Shown one piece after another: positions 24,591-32,665 of a DNA stretch of 40,751 nt (within the stretch, counting starts at the first letter, position 1; each line of letters starts with the position of its first letter). The DNA lies in contig CASFOT010000095.1 of NCBI GenBank assembly GCA_949296305.1, positions 1 through 40,751 of the forward strand. The letters run 5' to 3'. The notes below the pieces were generated by a model that worked only from the letters and a program-made list of their open reading frames with translations, had not been told where the DNA came from and did not search any database. The position numbers were made by a program, and so were the translations under genes. The DNA comes from an uncultured Erysipelotrichaceae bacterium (lineage in GTDB: Bacteria; Bacillota_I; Bacilli_A; Erysipelotrichales; Erysipelotrichaceae).

Positions 24591-25667
24591 TCATTTTGCT
24601 TGATCACTTTGTACATGTTTCCGATTCAGCTTTTTTTTCACTCTTCGTGCAATTGAAAGGATCGGATGATATTTATCCGAGATCATGCCGGAAACCTCAA
24701 TGAAAAGCTCCACCATGAACATGATAACAAACAAAGAAATCAGGCCAATTCCCTTATTGATCATATAACAATAAGCAGTCAAGCCAAACATTGCAGTAAC
24801 GATGCACATGATGATCACCGTGTTTTTATGTCCAAATTTATTCATCAGCTGATGATGAATGTGGCTCTTATCTGCTTCTGAAAATTTATGTCCTTTTAAC
24901 GTTCGCCGCAAGATCGCACTCAGTGTATCAATGATCGGCAGCCCCAGCAATAACAAAGGCAATGCCAGCGTCATGATCGTCGAGCTCTTAAAGCCCAATA
25001 AAGAGATGGCAGAAATGATGAACCCAAGAAACAATGCACCGCAGTCACCCATGAAGATGCTGGCTGGATGCGCATTATAGACAAGAAAACCTAAAGTTGC
25101 CCCTGCTAAGATCAAGGAGATCATCTCTACGTCGCTTCTTCGCTCAATGACCGCTAACATTGCAATGACCACCAAGATGATCACGCTGATCCCGCCGCAT
25201 AACCCATCTAATCCATCAATGAGATTTACTGCATTAGTAATTCCTGTGATCCATAAGAAAGTGACAATGACCGAAACGACACCCATGGAAATGGTGATGC
25301 CAAACGGCAGGCGGATCACATCCAGCGTCACACCAGAAGCAATCAATACAATTGCGGCCACCACTTGAAAGCCAAATTTATATAATGGCCGAAGATTGAC
25401 AAAATCATCTGTCAGGCCCCCGATGAACATGATCGTTGATCCTAATAAGATCCCATTCATCGCCATATCGGTCTTGATAAAAACAGCCATAGAGATGATA
25501 AAAGCCAAGTAGATCGCAACACCACCGATCCGCACGATCTTCCCTGAATGCACCGTACGTTCATTGATCTGTGCAAACCCATCCAGACGAAAAGCAATCC
25601 GTTTGACGACCGGTGTCAATACCAATGAGATGGTAAAGGGAAGAATGACAAATAGAATATCATTCAT
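24591..25667 (-). CDS. tagO: UDP-GlcNAc:undecaprenyl-P GlcNAc-1-P transferase (TagO/WecA type)
   Basis: An integral membrane enzyme that starts wall-polymer (teichoic acid or polysaccharide) synthesis by linking GlcNAc-1-P to undecaprenyl phosphate. It has about eleven membrane helices in 358 residues. Family motifs are GGLTDDFVNLRPLYKFGFQ (Asp pair), ITNAVNLIDGLDGL, FMGDCGALFLGF, and the cytoplasmic His motif KSHIHHQLM. It lies 21 nt after mbl in the same operon, linking lipid-linked polymer priming with cell-shape control. The precise polymer made is not visible. Confidence 0.9.
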   Translation of the reverse strand: MNDILFVILPFTISLVLTPVVKRIAFRLDGFAQINERTVHSGKIVRIGGVAIYLAFIISMAVFIKTDMAMNGILLGSTIMFIGGLTDDFVNLRPLYKFGFQVVAAIVLIASGVTLDVIRLPFGITISMGVVSVIVTFLWITGITNAVNLIDGLDGLCGGISVIILVVIAMLAVIERRSDVEMISLILAGATLGFLVYNAHPASIFMGDCGALFLGFIISAISLLGFKSSTIMTLALPLLLLGLPIIDTLSAILRRTLKGHKFSEADKSHIHHQLMNKFGHKNTVIIMCIVTAMFGLTAYCYMINKGIGLISLFVIMFMVELFIEVSGMISDKYHPILSIARRVKKKLNRKHVQSDQAK

Positions 25668-25688
25668 AATGAAACCTCGTTATCAAAT

Positions 25689-26675
25689 TTATCCGACCAA
25701 GTGCAGATTTTCCAGCAAGATCCCTGTACCTTCAGCAACACAGCGAAGCGCATTGTCGGCCACAAATACCGGAATGTGAAGTTCATCACGCAGCAGCTCA
25801 TCCAAGCCTTTCAACAGAGAACCGCCTCCTGTCAGCACAATGCCGCGCGTTACGATATCTGCAGCTAATTCCGGCGGTGTATTTTCTAAAACTGTACGGC
25901 ATGCATGCACGATCTCGGCTAAACGCTCATTCAAGCAGCCTTGGATCTCTGCACTGTTCAGCTGGATGCTGATCGGTAATCCGCTGACCAGATCTCGGCC
26001 GCTGACTTCCATCACATCTTTTGTAGAACCTTTCCATGCAGTACCGATCTTCTTCTTCACTTCTTCTGCTGTACGATCACCGATCAGCAGTTTCTTTTCT
26101 TCTTTGCAGAATTTGATGATCTCACGATCCATGGCATCACCTGCCACACGCAGCGATGTACTCGTGATGATCTCTCCTAATGAAATGACCGCAACATCGG
26201 TCGTACCGCCGCCGATATCTAAGACCATGCAGCCGCTAGGTCTGCCGATATCCAGTCCAGCGCCTACTGCCGCTACTTTTGGTTCTTCTTCAATATAAAC
26301 TTTTTTTGCGCCGCTGCGGTAAGCCGCATCACGGATTGCATTGCGCTCTACGCTTGTAATATTGCTTGGACAGCAGATCAAAATGATCGGACGTCGAAAC
26401 ATTCCTTTCAATTCCAGTTTTTTAAAGAAATAATTCAACATGATCTCCGTCACTTCAAAGTCAGCGATAACACCGTCTTTCAATGGACGGATCGCCATCA
26501 TCTTTCCTGGTGTACGGCCTAACATTTCTTTTGCTTCACTGCCGGCAGCTAAACAGCGTTTTGTCTCTGCATCAATGGCCACAACGCTTGGCTCATCAAT
26601 GACGATTCCTTCACCTTTGACATACATCAATATATTTGCTGTTCCTAAGTCGATTCCAACTTCTTTTGAAAACAT
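25689..26675 (-). CDS. mbl: MreB/Mbl rod-shape actin homologue
   Basis: A bacterial actin that directs cell-wall elongation from the inner membrane face. Actin-fold motifs are GIDLGTANILMYVKG (phosphate 1) at the N-terminus, VLDIGGGTTDVAVIS (phosphate 2) near 150, and IVLTGGGSLLKGLDELL (adenosine). The protein has 328 residues, slightly below the MreB average. ATG 26675 is chosen because GGAGG lies 7 nt upstream; an ATG at 26681 abuts it. Its position near spoIID and spoIIQ matches the Firmicutes spoIID-spoIIQ-spoIIID-mbl cluster, hence Mbl rather than MreB. Confidence 0.93.
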   Translation of the reverse strand: MFSKEVGIDLGTANILMYVKGEGIVIDEPSVVAIDAETKRCLAAGSEAKEMLGRTPGKMMAIRPLKDGVIADFEVTEIMLNYFFKKLELKGMFRRPIILICCPSNITSVERNAIRDAAYRSGAKKVYIEEEPKVAAVGAGLDIGRPSGCMVLDIGGGTTDVAVISLGEIITSTSLRVAGDAMDREIIKFCKEEKKLLIGDRTAEEVKKKIGTAWKGSTKDVMEVSGRDLVSGLPISIQLNSAEIQGCLNERLAEIVHACRTVLENTPPELAADIVTRGIVLTGGGSLLKGLDELLRDELHIPVFVADNALRCVAEGTGILLENLHLVG

Positions 26676-27077
26676 GAACATTCCTCCAAACTTAATTTTC
26701 TGATGATCCCTCATCTGCTAAGCACTTCCATGAAAAGCAAGTGCTTGATAGCTTCTATATTCTATCACTTTTTTCAACAAAAACAAATAGATTGAAAGCA
26801 ACAGCCGATATTTCACATTTTTCGACAAATCAAAAAAGGGCCTGCTTTGGATGCCCCAGCATGTTGACAAACGATCTACTTCAAAAGCATTGAAAAGCAA
26901 TGGCTAAAAAGTGGGGATGATAAACCATTTTTCAGGCAGTTTTAGACAAATGACGGCTTAAGACTGCCTGCTTTTTATATAAAAGTGGAGACTAAAAAGA
27001 CCGTATGACAAAAGTCTGCTCAAAGAGCGACTTTATCAACGGTCTGAGCCATTCTTTGAATGCCCGTTTTTGTACGA
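26676..27077. promoter_or_regulatory. 402-bp gap between spoIIQ and mbl
   Basis: This gap holds no convincing gene; SpoIIID, usual at this place, is missing. On the minus strand TTGTTT (26786-26781) and TAGAAT (26764-26759), 16 bp apart, could be the mbl promoter. The mbl leader contains a perfect 8-bp stem AAGCACTT / AAGTGCTT (26720-26746) with an 11-nt loop. A plus-strand terminator-like hairpin CAGGCAGT / ACTGCCTG (26933-26970, then CTTTTTAT) has no obvious plus-strand gene. Confidence 0.45.
26994..27044 (-). terminator. Terminator of the spoIID-spoIIQ unit
   Basis: On the minus strand a long hairpin with stems GACCGT / ACGGTC, AAAGTC / GACTTT and GCTC / GAGC (27044-26999) is followed by five T. 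It lies 34 nt after the spoIIQ stop. Confidence 0.75.
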
Positions 27078-27710
27078 TCACTGGCCAATCAACGCATTGA
27101 ACTCTTCAGCTGTCTTGCCATACACATTTTCAGGATCCGTTAATTGTCCGTCGATCTCGACCACCAGATGCAGATGATTTCCAAGATCTTTGCCATACAC
27201 GCATGTTCCTGCAGAAGCGATCACATCTCCTTGTTCCACATGATCACCTTTTTTTACTTTCACATCATTGAGGCTTTGCATCGTTACCGTCATCGTTTCA
27301 CTTTGAATGACCACGGTATTTCCGAACAATTCATCCTCTCGGACATCGCTGACTTCCCCATCCATCATCGCGATGATTTCAAAGGCTTCTCCATCTTTTG
27401 TATAGTCGATTCCCTGCGAAGAACGATACACTTCTTCAAATTTCACAAATGTATCGGTCTTGTTTTCTTCACCATCAAAATAGTCTACTGTGATCACAGC
27501 ATCAACTGCAAACGGCTTCTGTACGATTTGCGGCAATTCTTCATCTGGCAAGGGAAGGATCACCTCTTGATCTTCGGCTACGGTCGGTTCTGTTTGCGGA
27601 TCTTGATTCATCATCCATGTCAAGGTTCCTACCGCAATGATCAAAAAGCAGGACATAACGACGATTCCTCTTTTTTTCCATCGGATCGTTTTATTTTCAT
27701 AACTGAGCAT
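27078..27710 (-). CDS. spoIIQ: SpoIIQ-like M23 (LytM) domain membrane protein
   Basis: A single-pass membrane protein (helix at about 15-32, GIVVMSCFLIIAVG) with an extracellular LytM domain, like the forespore protein SpoIIQ that pairs with SpoIIIAH to build the feeding channel and aid engulfment. The LytM motifs are SQGIDYTKDGE near 110 and NHLHLVVEIDG near 182. The first zinc-ligand His (normally HxGxD) is Ser here, so the peptidase site is incomplete, as also reported for Bacillus SpoIIQ. The linker is rich in acidic residues. It lies 33 nt after spoIID, with AGAGGTGATAAA as ribosome site. Confidence 0.85.
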   Translation of the reverse strand: MLSYENKTIRWKKRGIVVMSCFLIIAVGTLTWMMNQDPQTEPTVAEDQEVILPLPDEELPQIVQKPFAVDAVITVDYFDGEENKTDTFVKFEEVYRSSQGIDYTKDGEAFEIIAMMDGEVSDVREDELFGNTVVIQSETMTVTMQSLNDVKVKKGDHVEQGDVIASAGTCVYGKDLGNHLHLVVEIDGQLTDPENVYGKTAEEFNALIGQ

Positions 27711-27743
27711 TTTATCACCTCTATCCCCATTATGCCCATGCCT

Positions 27744-28664
27744 TTAAGAATTATACACATCGTCTAGCTGTATGCCGCTGTAATAATGTTTTAATATCTC
27801 CGTATAACTTTTCCCTTCCAGCGCCATCCCTTGCGCCCCTTCCTGGGACATGCCCACCCCATGGCCGGACCCCTTGATCGTAAAAATGACCTGTTCTCCT
27901 TGCACTTTGATCGTAAAACAGCTTGACCGCAATTGTAAGGCTTCCCGGATCTCACGTCCGCTGTAGCTCTGATCATCGATCTGTACAGTTTTGACATAGC
28001 CGCTTTCATAAGAAGCACTCACTTGTATGGAGGAAACCGATGCATCCTTTCCCAATGCTTGGCCAAGCGCCTCTTTCGTACATTGAAACGTACTGATGTA
28101 ATCTTCATCTGTTGTTTCGTCCCAAGGGGAATCCACACTGCGCAGATAAGCCAGTGCACTGTTGTAATATTCTTCACTGTTGGCTGTTTTCCCAGCACTG
28201 CTGGCGAAAAAGAAGGCAGTGATCGGCTTTCCTTCATAGGTCATGATCTCGCCTCTTGTTGCATCGACTGCTTCTTCTACCCGCTGCCTGCTCGTTTCAT
28301 ATTGTCCTTTCCAAACGGCCTGAAGCTGTTCATCATCCAAATACACTTGTGAGGCAGTCGTATCATCCACTTTATAGTTGCGCGAAGCGACAAATGTACG
28401 AGCAGCGACCGCTTGTGCTTTCAAAGCCTCCATTTCATAGGACGGTGACATTTCTGATCCGACGACACCTTTCAGATATGTTTCCAATTCGATTTCAAAG
28501 GTCTCTTCTCCGCGGGTCAACGACACCATTTTTTTTGTTTGTTCCTTTTTTTCACTGTCACTTACTCTTACGATCGATTCAAACATATTCACTTGCTGGA
28601 CCCACAAAAACAAACAGCAGAAAATGACAGCACCCAGCAAAAACACTTTGATCTCTAAACGCAA
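27744..28664 (-). CDS. spoIID: SpoIID, sporulation lytic transglycosylase
   Basis: A membrane-anchored murein lytic transglycosylase that trims septal peptidoglycan during engulfment. After one N-terminal membrane helix (VFLLGAVIFCCLFLW) come the hallmark ETYLKGVVGSEMSPSYE (catalytic Glu in GSEM), ALKAQAVAARTFV, FFFASSAGKTANSEEYY, and GSGHGVGMSQEGAQGMA near the C-terminus. The start is unclear: a TTG at 28664 with GAGG 10 nt upstream is preferred; the frame stays open to 28685 without an ATG. It pairs with spoIIQ downstream. Confidence 0.92.
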   Translation of the reverse strand: MRLEIKVFLLGAVIFCCLFLWVQQVNMFESIVRVSDSEKKEQTKKMVSLTRGEETFEIELETYLKGVVGSEMSPSYEMEALKAQAVAARTFVASRNYKVDDTTASQVYLDDEQLQAVWKGQYETSRQRVEEAVDATRGEIMTYEGKPITAFFFASSAGKTANSEEYYNSALAYLRSVDSPWDETTDEDYISTFQCTKEALGQALGKDASVSSIQVSASYESGYVKTVQIDDQSYSGREIREALQLRSSCFTIKVQGEQVIFTIKGSGHGVGMSQEGAQGMALEGKSYTEILKHYYSGIQLDDVYNS

Positions 28665-28706
28665 AAAAATCACATCCTCATACAACTATATGAGAACGTG
28701 ATCAGA

Positions 28707-30305
28707 TTATACACTACGCTCTTTTAGTTTTTTGCGATAATCTCTCGGGGTCATCTGATGATATCGCCGGAACACTCGATCAAAATAATACGGATCTTCA
28801 AAACCGACACGTTTAGCGATCTCTTTGATCGATAAATTTGATTCATGAAGCAAGACCAACGCCTCTTTCATCTTCACCTCATTGATATAAGCAATCATCG
28901 TCTGCCCAACTTCTTGTTTGAACAACCGGCTGGCATAACTCGGAGATACTTGAAAATGCATGGCAACTTCAGCCAAGCTCAACGGACGATGCAGGTTCTT
29001 GTGGATAAATTCCATCCAGTCGCTTACATCTCTGCGATATCGCGGCTGGTTCTTCTCATTGATCCACAGCTCCATCGCTGTCCAGATCTGCTGCATCTCC
29101 ATGCGCAGCTGCGTCAATGTCTCACAATAAAAGATGACCGTACCTGCATCCTCAAAAGGAAAATGTTTGCTTTGCAGACGGAATGTGCTCTCTCGTCCTT
29201 CCACATTATTCACGATGAAGCTGCAATAAGCCAAGACATCTCTTGGCAATATCTGGTACTCTTCCATATAATCCAGCATCTGTGTCTGAATCGATCGCAC
29301 CCGTTCAAAATCCTGCATGAGCACTGCATTGAACAGCTGTTGATGAAAACCGACCTTATTGGGATGCAAGCGTTGAAAATTTGGTTCTAATGCATCACGG
29401 ACCATCAAGATATGCTCCGTTTCATAAAAGCGGTTTTGACTGCATTGCAGCAGCTGATCAAATTGATCCATCATTTCCTGTGCTTTTGTGAAAGGTTCGC
29501 TGATGACGACCGTCATATCATAATTTAACAATTGCTGTATCTGTGTATGCAGCGAACGTACTAAAAACAAGATCTGCGTAGGATCGTTGGAGCGAAATAA
29601 AACTACGACACTGTGCTGATTCAAAAATAAAGGAACCGCTTCTGGCAGAGCCATGTGATTTTCTTTCAAGATCTGTTCCAGCTGCATGCGCAAATGCTTT
29701 CGATCGATCTTTCGCTGATAATGAATGAGATGGATCTGATCGATGCGCAGATAAGCCATCAGGACCCCTTCTTTCAGAAAGTCATAATACGGATGTTGTA
29801 AGACCTTCTCAAAATCTTCTGCTTCGCTGGAATGGTCTTCTTTGCGCAGCAGCAGGCATTGCTGAAGCTCACGGATCACACCATCTACGACAGCCGCATG
29901 ATGGCGTTTATTTTGATTCACTTTGGCTTTTGCCTCTTCGATGGCTGCCTGAAGACCTTCTTTGGTCAAAAGTGAAAATAAAAGCAGATCGTCGATGCCG
30001 CTGCGAATGTAAGAACGTACGCGGTAATAGGAATAATTGTCCATAAATAATAAGATCTGGACATTTTCATCCATACGGCGGATCTGGTGAATCAAAGAAA
30101 TGCGGTCCAATCGCTTTCCGCTGACACCGATCAGAATGATATCTGGATAAATTTCCCGATATAAACGATAAGCGGTTTTGCTGTTTTGCGCAAATGCAAT
30201 CAATTCACAGGAAAGCGCATGCCAATTGACCATGTTTTTGATATGCAGCTGGCGGCGCATATCTTCATCAACGATGATGACCTTATAAACCTTAGGTGAG
30301 TCCAT
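28707..30305 (-). CDS. AraC-type response regulator with degenerate receiver
   Basis: A YesN-like two-domain regulator, 532 residues: an N-terminal receiver (1-125), a ~290-residue linker, and a C-terminal AraC DNA-binding domain (about 430-530: LSLAEVAMHFQVSPSYASRLF, SIKEIAKRVGFEDPYYFDRVF). The receiver keeps the acidic pair (DED 13-15), but Gly60 stands where the phosphorylated Asp should be (PDIILIG), the conserved Thr/Ser site appears to be Met88, and Phe110 takes the place of the conserved Lys. No histidine kinase is nearby. It overlaps the DUF1146 gene by 14 bp. It probably works without phosphorylation; its targets are unknown. Confidence 0.9.
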   Translation of the reverse strand: MDSPKVYKVIIVDEDMRRQLHIKNMVNWHALSCELIAFAQNSKTAYRLYREIYPDIILIGVSGKRLDRISLIHQIRRMDENVQILLFMDNYSYYRVRSYIRSGIDDLLLFSLLTKEGLQAAIEEAKAKVNQNKRHHAAVVDGVIRELQQCLLLRKEDHSSEAEDFEKVLQHPYYDFLKEGVLMAYLRIDQIHLIHYQRKIDRKHLRMQLEQILKENHMALPEAVPLFLNQHSVVVLFRSNDPTQILFLVRSLHTQIQQLLNYDMTVVISEPFTKAQEMMDQFDQLLQCSQNRFYETEHILMVRDALEPNFQRLHPNKVGFHQQLFNAVLMQDFERVRSIQTQMLDYMEEYQILPRDVLAYCSFIVNNVEGRESTFRLQSKHFPFEDAGTVIFYCETLTQLRMEMQQIWTAMELWINEKNQPRYRRDVSDWMEFIHKNLHRPLSLAEVAMHFQVSPSYASRLFKQEVGQTMIAYINEVKMKEALVLLHESNLSIKEIAKRVGFEDPYYFDRVFRRYHQMTPRDYRKKLKERSV

Positions 30306-30498
30306 TAAAGATCGTCAGCTCCAATAAAAAGCTGCCACACAGATAAGCAAGTGCCATAGCTAAGATCAAAAACAGCAGTTGCGCTTTCATCGGCTGACGC
30401 ACATTGACAAAGCGGTCAAATTGAACACCGCTCAAAGCAAAGAGTGCGGCCAAAAAGCAAATTAGATAGATTGCCAGCTTCACGATTGCATACACCAT
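30292..30498 (-). CDS. DUF1146 (YwzB-like) small membrane protein
   Basis: A 68-residue protein with two membrane helices (about 5-24 and 41-60) joined by a short basic loop, VNVRQPMKAQLLFLILAMALAYLCG being characteristic of DUF1146 (shown here only by its key part: QPMKAQLLFLILAMA). Its function is unknown. In Bacillus the family member ywzB lies near spoIID, which matches the order here. GAGGGATCTCG precedes the ATG. Its stop overlaps the start of the response-regulator gene, so both are translated together. Confidence 0.8.
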   Translation of the reverse strand: MVYAIVKLAIYLICFLAALFALSGVQFDRFVNVRQPMKAQLLFLILAMALAYLCGSFLLELTIFNGLT

Positions 30499-30570
30499 CG
30501 AGATCCCTCATTTCTCCTTTTATTGTAACGGATGTTTTCTTCTTTTTCAAACAGTCAGAAACAGGAGCGC

Positions 30571-31812
30571 TTAATCAGCACTCCCGTTATTTTTTATCGG
30601 CACATTTCCATGGGTTTCCGGCCGTCCTCCATTATTCACATAGATTGCACTCGAACCAAACACCATCAGAAACAGCATGGCCGTCTGGATCCAGTTCAAT
30701 GTATGATCAAAAAGACCATGAATCAACACCGTTAACAAAAAAGCAGCGATCAAAGCAAACAATGGCACATCGAAGCGTTTGGTATACAGGCGGATGATTT
30801 CTTTTATATTTTCCCAAAAAGCAGCAAACATGAGCAGCAAGCCGATCAAACCGTGGCTTAATAACGGATCTAAGAACACGTTATGTGCATGCATCGCTCT
30901 TCGCCCATCATAAAGCTTGTAAAAAATCTGATAACACTGCGGTCCTCCGCCAAAGAGCAGATGGTCTTGAATGGCCATGACTGCTGTTTTCCAGATCCGC
31001 CCGCGTACGATAAATGAATCCAAGAAACCACTGCGCGGCAATAAACTTGGATCGATCCATACCGCACTGACACCGCTGAGCAGCAAGCCCATGGAAACCA
31101 TGAACGATTTCCAATGCCTCGTCAACAGAAACATCACCGGGATCGCAACGATAAACGATGCCCATGCTGTGCGGCAGCCAGTCAGATACAAGGCAAACAA
31201 ATTCAATAAGATGATGCCCCAATAAAACAAGATCCGATGCAGCTTTTCTGAATACAACAGCTTATAGACACAGCAAAGCACAAGAAATTCGATCATCATC
31301 GCATAGAAATTTGCATTATAAAAAGTAGAGTTGACACGCCAATGCGGCGCATCTTCTATTTCCAGATCAAAAAAGCTGTAGCCAAAATGATCGATGATGC
31401 GGAAATATTCCATGATGGCCCAAATAAAGCAGAAGATGGAAATGATACAGCATGCATCGATCAGCAAAATAAACAGGCGTTTATTGATGATGCTTCGATA
31501 AAACATGTAATACACAAAGATCAGCAGCATTGCAAAAGACTGCAGCATGCCAATCTGATTGGAATACATCATTGAAGTGACAAAAGAAACCAGACAGAAC
31601 AGAAAAAACAGAAAGGCCCGCGGTGTGTTGCGGATGATCGTGATCAGCTGATGGGTTGCTGCCAGATAACAAAGCGTAAAGACAATCGCGGCAATCGAAC
31701 AGAAATATGGCAGAAATATCGAGCATGTCACAAACATGATCAAATATTCTTCAAACGTATAGCCATCGAGCTTGCGATGGTAAAACGCTTTGGCCCTATT
31801 GATCCATTCCAT
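30571..31812 (-). CDS. O-antigen ligase/polymerase-like membrane protein
   Basis: A 413-residue membrane protein with about eleven helices and a large extracellular loop. The loop holds GGGPQCYQIF and MHAHNVFLDPLLSHGLIGL, the signature of the Wzy_C/O-antigen-ligase family. In a Gram-positive host it would polymerise or attach a wall glycan or capsule unit rather than act on LPS. It begins 13 nt after ispE, with AGGAGGAAAAGCT as ribosome site, so it is at the end of the rnmV-rsmA-ispE operon, an uncommon place. No other glycan genes except tagO are in the window. Confidence 0.85.
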   Translation of the reverse strand: MEWINRAKAFYHRKLDGYTFEEYLIMFVTCSIFLPYFCSIAAIVFTLCYLAATHQLITIIRNTPRAFLFFLFCLVSFVTSMMYSNQIGMLQSFAMLLIFVYYMFYRSIINKRLFILLIDACCIISIFCFIWAIMEYFRIIDHFGYSFFDLEIEDAPHWRVNSTFYNANFYAMMIEFLVLCCVYKLLYSEKLHRILFYWGIILLNLFALYLTGCRTAWASFIVAIPVMFLLTRHWKSFMVSMGLLLSGVSAVWIDPSLLPRSGFLDSFIVRGRIWKTAVMAIQDHLLFGGGPQCYQIFYKLYDGRRAMHAHNVFLDPLLSHGLIGLLLMFAAFWENIKEIIRLYTKRFDVPLFALIAAFLLTVLIHGLFDHTLNWIQTAMLFLMVFGSSAIYVNNGGRPETHGNVPIKNNGSAD

Positions 31813-31825
31813 AGCTTTTCCTCCT

Positions 31826-32665
31826 CTATCCTTTTCGTTTTACGATCTGCGCAAAGTATCCCATTTTTGCATACCGTTCTTGAAGACGCAGCAGTTTCTC
31901 CCGGTCGCGATCGATCGCGAATACCGTTGAACCGCTCCCTGACATCAATGCACCGTTGACCCCGTCTGCTTGCAAAGCTTTTTTCAGCTTTTCTACTTCT
32001 GGATTGATCTGAAATGCACTGTATTCAAGCGTATTTCCTAAACATTTGCATAACTGCTCATACCGATCTTCGATCAGACAGTGTTCGATCCAATCGATAT
32101 CCGGATGTTCCACTTTGGCAAAATCCAATAATTGATAAGCTTTTCCTGTCGGCACACCGGTCGATGGTTTGACAAGCAGAATATCAAAACGGCAATGATC
32201 CTGCAACGGAAAAACCTGTTCTCCGATCCCTTCGACGCGCGCGCTCTGATTCAGCACACAGAAAGGCACATCGGCACCCACTTGCTTTGCACCTTTTGCC
32301 ACTTCTTCGATCGGCGCTTGGATCTCTGCCAATTCCATCGCAGCACGGATGATCGCACCTGCATCAGCGCTTCCGCCTGCTAAACCTGCTTCCATCGGGA
32401 TGCGTTTTTCCAATCGGATCCGAAAATGTGCATGCATGTTCCATTTTTCACGCAGATATTCCAACGCTTTAAAGATCAGGTTGTTCTCATTTACCGGCAC
32501 CCGTTCATCAAAACAAATCAATTCATCACGATCTGCCAGTTCCACTTCCAATGTATCATGCAGCGACAGCGGCAGCATGATCATGCGCAGATCATGATAT
32601 CCATCTTCGCGCCGCCTGACAACATCCAGCGACAAGTTAATTTTCGCATTTGCTTCCACTTTCAT
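31826..32665 (-). CDS. ispE: IspE, CDP-methylerythritol kinase
   Basis: A GHMP-superfamily kinase of the MEP isoprenoid pathway; it phosphorylates CDP-methylerythritol. Motifs are KVEANAKINLSLDV at the start, the ATP-binding GLAGGSADAGAII near 95, and ALMSGSGSTVFAI near 250. The protein has 279 residues. ATG 32665 is chosen because GAGG lies 9 nt upstream and the family begins at the KxNLxL motif; the frame upstream only runs into rsmA. The gene overlaps the end of rsmA by 29 bp, a coupling common in Firmicutes (rnmV-rsmA-ispE). Confidence 0.95.
   Translation of the reverse strand: MKVEANAKINLSLDVVRRREDGYHDLRMIMLPLSLHDTLEVELADRDELICFDERVPVNENNLIFKALEYLREKWNMHAHFRIRLEKRIPMEAGLAGGSADAGAIIRAAMELAEIQAPIEEVAKGAKQVGADVPFCVLNQSARVEGIGEQVFPLQDHCRFDILLVKPSTGVPTGKAYQLLDFAKVEHPDIDWIEHCLIEDRYEQLCKCLGNTLEYSAFQINPEVEKLKKALQADGVNGALMSGSGSTVFAIDRDREKLLRLQERYAKMGYFAQIVKRKG

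Follow-up and report, generated by a model that had tools for sequence, protein, structure and literature searches.

A kinase-less AraC/YesN-type regulator with a degenerate receiver at the DUF1146–spoIID locus of Merdibacter

Pseudo-receivers and YesMN-type systems

Pseudo-receivers (PsR) have been defined as recognisable receiver domains lacking at least one of five active-site residues, and account for ∼6% of bacterial receivers (PMC12632262); their on/off switching "remain[s] a mystery" in the words of the same 2025 review. The atypical regulators ChxR, HP1043, RitR and JadR1 covered there are orphans combining a receiver fold devoid of phospho-residues with a DNA-binding output. The regulator described here, encoded in a window of 40,751 nucleotides (the whole stretch of DNA analysed) from an uncultured Erysipelotrichaceae bacterium of the genus Merdibacter, resembles them in these respects, but differs in its AraC-type output and GGDEF-like middle domain, and in the survival of a kinase-bearing state at the same locus in relatives of Merdibacter. 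A literature search across titles and abstract openings returned no description of the locus or of AraC-type pseudo-receivers; "AraC" is absent from the main text of PMC12632262, and in the portion of PMC4395418 searched the sole word-start match is "Arachnida".

A second comparison is offered by the YesMN systems, including Geobacillus AraT and XynC, in which a receiver is likewise combined with an AraC-type helix-turn-helix (HTH), and whose domains are among the best solved matches to the regulator. YesMN pairs habitually adjoin sugar genes, whereas the Merdibacter regulator has no kinase, no phospho-pocket and no sugar-transport genes beside it. Loci of this type in Clostridium and Eubacterium multiforme (L087, L089, L090 and L091) encode a canonical regulator with, unlike Merdibacter, a kinase-like gene directly upstream; a 718-aa enzyme, which we take to be galacto-N-biose phosphorylase-like, lies nearby together with genes resembling a sugar ABC transporter (the PTS, sulfatase-like and phosphorylase-like names given to neighbour genes are likewise our assumption). 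The pairs of Longicatena caecimuris (L060) and Amedibacillus dolichus (L061) are orthologous in place and protein (31–32% identity), differing in the presence of the kinase and in a canonical receiver.

The Merdibacter protein belongs to a known class, the pseudo-receiver regulators, and is of YesN descent. Its special value lies in the stages found at one address: a kinase-bearing form, kinase-less forms whose pocket is intact, and two or more forms in which it broke separately occupy a single locus in related gut bacteria. With L. caecimuris DSM 29481, A. dolichus DSM 3991 and M. massiliensis Marseille-P3254 as named strains among them, these stages allow swap and ancestral-state work on the sequence in which the kinase went first and the pocket later.

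The regulator and its receiver domain

The regulator gene is an uninterrupted reading frame (ATG start, no internal stops), with the following features:

28707..30305, minus strand: AraC/YesN-type atypical response regulator, 532 aa (open reading frame, Pfam, orthologues 72% and 71% identical)
29919..30305, minus strand: pseudo-receiver domain, ∼residues 1–129, (beta-alpha)5 fold intact in the model, with G60, M88, L107 and F110
29403..29765, minus strand: GGDEF-like domain, ∼residues 181–301, GGDEF motif absent (HS at 231–232), from model strand/helix order and Foldseek
28731..29006, minus strand: AraC-type double helix-turn-helix, residues 434–525 (PF00165/PF12833; AraT C-terminal domain 6swi, Z 18.4)

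With a receiver at its N terminus and an AraC double HTH at its C terminus, the protein has a YesN-type architecture. Pfam recognises the DNA-binding domain (HTH_AraC 7.2e-24, HTH_18 3.4e-22), while the Response_reg (PF00072) score, 21.4 bits, falls short of the 30.2-bit cut-off, and the middle region has no Pfam match over cut-off. In an alignment with 13 orthologues the columns of the phospho-Asp, Ser/Thr and Lys are occupied by Gly60, Met88 and Phe110, respectively, bearing out the preliminary description; three of the five receiver residues are changed (D60G, S/T88M, K110F) and the acidic pair is kept (Asp13 and Glu14, then Asp15). Further swaps put Leu107 in place of the switch aromatic, Lys64 in place of Pro at D+4 and Arg68 in place of Gly at D+8. 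On these residues the receiver would be classed as a PsR and, with Gly60 in all three Merdibacter species, as an aspartate-less receiver (ALR); judged by its sequence the regulator is a YesN protein by descent and a two-component regulator no more. Among 14 other PF00072 matches in the window genome, Asp and Lys are kept in all 14 and the full set of five residues in 13. A second, partial pseudo-receiver in this genome (G000:C57:6217-6543, L204) has lost the acidic pair and Ser/Thr and retains Asp and Lys.

The same locus is found in Merdibacter massiliensis Marseille-P3254 (G001) and Candidatus Merdibacter merdigallinarum (G002), both congeneric with the window genome, whose regulators (72% and 71% identical, respectively) share the three losses, with Gly60 and Met88 common to the three species and position 110 occupied by Phe, Tyr and Phe in the window species, M. 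massiliensis and Cand. M. merdigallinarum. Sequencing error is an unlikely source of changes that two more species share. Nor does a different Asp serve as candidate acceptor, the acceptor column of the regulator's alignment row holding none. Phosphorylation or another modification at some other residue (a Ser/Thr kinase could be the enzyme) has a reported parallel in GlnR (PMC12632262), but with an acceptor column devoid of Asp we regard it as quite improbable here. Cys33 lies 19 residues past Glu14, the DD+19 spacing of the redox-switch Cys in HP1021-type regulators; it was rejected as a special trait of the degenerate form, being present in canonical relatives too; 17 of 38 alignment rows have it.

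An AlphaFold2 model of the regulator (38 rows, mean pLDDT 86.9, pTM 0.61) orders the chain as five beta-alpha units, strands and helices in GGDEF order (∼181–301), further helices and the HTH, with pLDDT of 80–94 in blocks of residues 11–130; the receiver fold is intact in the prediction. The best solved matches to the receiver are the AraT REC domain (6swb_A) and KdpE D52A (4l85_C), tied at Z 19.1 over 126 and 120 aligned residues, a match of fold that is blind to conformation. Receiver–GGDEF proteins (PA3702, WpsR, DgcR, PleD) fill Foldseek rows 1–15, at TM-scores that are low (0.21–0.34 of the query) owing to different domain packing. PF17853 was found, below cut-off, in one paralogue. The long linker through which the preliminary description envisaged ligand sensing consists of the GGDEF-like domain and a helical part and is the least conserved region of the regulator; the remodelled receiver pocket is no worse a candidate for the sensor.

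Across the three Merdibacter species 85 of 119 receiver positions (7–125) are identical, and conservation of the receiver (77.2% identity) matches that of the HTH (77.8%) and exceeds that of the linker (64.6%). Receiver dN is 0.14–0.17, against dS of 0.9–2.6 where computable and saturated elsewhere, and the codon tests are limited by dS being saturated or uncomputable for many pairs. The Merdibacter receiver is maintained, as conserved as the DNA-binding domain. The proposition that the receiver is simply decaying and the DNA-binding part alone matters is suited to genomes G144 and G140, in which receiver identity falls to 20% against 78% for the HTH (dN 1.12 versus 0.12) and the receiver looks relaxed, but given the parity of the two domains in Merdibacter it is highly improbable for that genus.

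Conservation is pronounced around the former acceptor, with 13 of 15 residues at positions 58–72 identical in the three Merdibacter, and 28 receiver positions show one residue throughout Merdibacter and another throughout the four kinase-bearing orthologues, nine of these positions lying at 58–68 or 88. Pseudo-receivers that bind ligands exist (PMC12632262), and it is conceivable, if doubtful, that the lost pocket has become a ligand site in which the loop G60-V-S-G-K-R-L-D-R, Met88 and Phe/Tyr110 bind a small, perhaps anionic, molecule and signal to the AraC domain, although conservation would also fit a fixed structural role. More tentatively still, a two-component regulator may have been converted to a one-component sensor by rebuilding of the pocket (GVSGKRLDR, Met88, Phe/Tyr110) for a new effector, with all stages alive at one address.

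Paralogous AraC-type regulators were observed in Cand. M. merdigallinarum (L041:16472-18151 and L041:4672-6372), Massilimicrobiota (L039:8925-10592) and Dielma (L040:6295-7860); the second acidic residue is lost in all four, and L041:16472-18151 has Ala at the phospho-Asp position.

The locus with and without a kinase

Among the 272 genomes of the family, 15 gave a regulator match with an E-value no higher than 1e-25; in 14 the gene lies at the DUF1146 locus and in one (G026, Dielma) elsewhere. With the canonical Longicatena protein as query and a threshold of E 1e-45, a second search covering both the family (272) and the order (315) brought in G218 and G038, the gene of the latter not being at the DUF1146 locus. 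At all 14 loci the gene immediately upstream of the regulator, or of the kinase–regulator pair, is DUF1146; downstream follow spoIID (12), spoIIQ (13) and mbl (seen in 9), the exceptions for spoIID being G008, in which it does not come after the regulator, and G144, with none on the contig. In G008 (L038) kinase, regulator and spoIIQ follow one another without spoIID in between, and that genome has no spoIID match at E 1e-30. A G029 contig breaks off within a related regulator, of which it keeps the C-terminal 61 residues; a 528-aa ORF separates this fragment from spoIID, and a spoIIQ-like gene comes next. The receiver and any kinase lie beyond the contig end. G029 (L170, L149, G029:C144) is probably a fifteenth locus member and was excluded from the regulator-less set and from all 14-locus counts.

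A kinase gene stands between DUF1146 and the regulator in four of the 14 genomes, from four genera: G008, G240 (L. caecimuris), G064 (A. dolichus) and G065. In each it encodes 545–563 aa with His_kinase (PF06580) and HATPase_c domains, and all five receiver residues of the partner regulator are canonical (DDE, ITDLK, Ser, YLLK). At the other ten loci, including those of the three Merdibacter, which lack the adjacent YesM-type kinase of a YesN system, the kinase is missing; no kinase gene lies beside the regulator in the window, as had been observed at the outset. Six of the ten have degenerate receivers and four (the g54 loci L062, L063, L064 and L065) retain every residue of the phospho-pocket. 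Beyond Merdibacter, the degenerate receivers have followed different routes: G146 has Glu at the phospho-Asp and Arg at the Lys position, with the first acidic residue gone; G144 retains Asp and Lys, with the acidic pair and Ser gone; G140 has Ile at Asp, Ala at Ser/Thr, Arg at Lys and no acidic pair. A canonical pocket accompanies a kinase at the locus in 4/4 cases versus 4/10 without one (Fisher p 0.085; the rows are related).

Kinases elsewhere in the genomes were also considered. Strong full-length matches to the Longicatena locus kinase occur, among the 14 genomes, solely in the four with a kinase at the locus. The window genome has a single PF06580 kinase and the four g54 genomes have one or two apiece; none was found by the same search in M. 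massiliensis, G002, G146, G140 or G144, the completeness of these assemblies being 99% for M. massiliensis, 100% for G146, 86% for G002, 86% for G140 and 66% for G144 (window genome, 86%). Each of the eight kinases (one in the window genome, seven in g54) has its own adjacent regulator, and a relocated YesM-type partner was accordingly rejected, neither the window genome nor any of the four g54 genomes having a PF06580 kinase to spare. The name of orphan given in the preliminary description holds as far as YesM-type kinases are concerned, the sole PF06580 kinase of the window genome having a regulator of its own. Any PF06580 kinase in the genome accompanies an intact pocket in 8/8 cases and a broken pocket in 1/6 (Fisher p 0.003, uncorrected for kinship), the window genome being the exception with its own PF06580 kinase and a broken pocket. 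Since these four g54 genomes keep the pocket with neither a locus kinase nor a spare YesM-type kinase, kinase loss alone does not break the pocket.

In a tree built on linker and HTH columns, with the receiver excluded, the Merdibacter trio (100/100), six g54 genomes (99/99) and G144 with G140 (100/100) are well supported and deeper forks are weak. Placement of the six degenerate receivers in one clade is rejected (p-AU 0.009), which means two or more separate breakages of the pocket; a grouping of all ten kinase-less rows is not rejected (p-AU 0.28), and kinase loss may have been a single event. At 17 of 20 spoIID loci from relatives DUF1146 immediately precedes spoIID and the regulator is absent, indicating that the pair was probably inserted; the other three are L180 and L188, with neither DUF1146 nor regulator in the stretch examined, and G029. 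The simplest history would be insertion of a YesMN-like two-component pair between DUF1146 and spoIID in an ancestor, subsequent loss of the kinase and damage to the pocket afterwards.

The regulator is probably the surviving half of a YesMN-like pair, now a kinase-free DNA-binding regulator with a folded, selected pseudo-receiver. In the Merdibacter line the kinase gene would have been lost, the regulator now starting within the final bases of DUF1146, and its receiver would have shed its phospho-chemistry (D→G, S/T→M, K→F/Y, switch Tyr→Leu) while being retained as a folded domain under selection. The phosphorylation-independent action proposed in the preliminary description is well supported by the residues, the absence of the kinase in synteny, the conserved receiver and the separate degeneration in sister lineages, from which we infer it. 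We would guess that the pseudo-receiver fixes the protein in a DNA-binding-competent, probably dimeric state, and that output is set by protein level or some effector, with both effector and targets a matter of conjecture.

Neighbouring genes, promoters and the sporulation reading

The neighbours of the regulator in the window are:

30522..30550, minus strand: sigma-A-like promoter TTGAAA-17-TACAAT of the DUF1146–regulator unit, hexamers identical in three Merdibacter
30292..30498, minus strand: DUF1146 (YwzB-like) small membrane protein, 68 aa (PF06612)
28668..28703, minus strand: hairpin containing a sigma-E-like -10 (CATATAGT, 28692-28685) and the spoIID Shine-Dalgarno (GAGG, 28679-28676)
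27744..28685, minus strand: spoIID, longest ORF (TIGR02870, 271.7 bits, cut-off 234.75)
27078..27710, minus strand: spoIIQ-like M23 peptidase (PF01551; NF053738 107.6 bits, below cut-off 250)
25689..26714, minus strand: mreB/mbl (PF06723)

The overlap with DUF1146 and the position just before spoIID were correctly described; the regulator start overlaps the DUF1146 end by 11–14 bp in Merdibacter (14 bp in the window), and comparison with sister species suggests a spoIID start at TTG, 28664. TTGAAA-17-TACAAT ends 17–23 bases ahead of DUF1146 in all three Merdibacter, within diverged surrounding DNA, and is predicted to be a vegetative-type promoter from which DUF1146 and the regulator would be expressed jointly. 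Promoter-like signals number 15 against 12.7 in shuffled sequence, and terminator-like signals 7 against 5.8; as both counts are near those of shuffled sequence, the promoter assignment rests on conservation.

A covarying hairpin lies between the regulator and spoIID, with the -10, identified against the sigma-E consensus, in its 5' arm and loop, the Shine-Dalgarno in its 3' arm and a T run after it. The same design, in other letters, is found in four g54 genomes, G146 and G014, the last being a locus in which DUF1146 immediately precedes spoIID and there is no regulator. A sigma-E-like promoter and a hairpin of its own, a design present even in G014, make the control of spoIID look separate from the regulator.

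These observations bear on the suggestion, made in the preliminary description, of a switch tied to sporulation or envelope state and acting on its neighbours. Its address beside spoIID, spoIIQ and mbl, at the frequencies given above, and the presence of Spo0A in 14/14 and SpoIVA in 12/14 locus-bearing genomes lend a sporulation role weak support. Against it, spoIID has the promoter and hairpin just described, the regulator shares a sigma-A-like promoter with DUF1146, the DUF1146–spoIID–spoIIQ order exists without the regulator at 17 of the 20 relatives' loci, the regulator-bearing form is rare (14 of 272 family genomes), and a heat-resistance sporulation test at 80 degrees is reported to have been negative for M. 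massiliensis (PMC6538751). We consider such a switch unlikely.

The hairpin was sampled by scanning 32 spoIID loci, from which 12 with hairpins were chosen, three of shifted register dropped and nine kept, a choice that favours pairing; among these nine loci 14 pairs hold in 95.2% of cells, with both-side changes at 9 pairs versus 4.8 in shuffles. It is weak or absent at many other relatives' spoIID loci, and an Rfam search of 25600-31900, up to E 1, gave no match. From the arrangement of its arms, read-through RNA would hide the spoIID ribosome site, while RNA from the predicted sigma-E promoter would not. A hairpin-hidden ribosome site has a precedent in phage T4 lysozyme.
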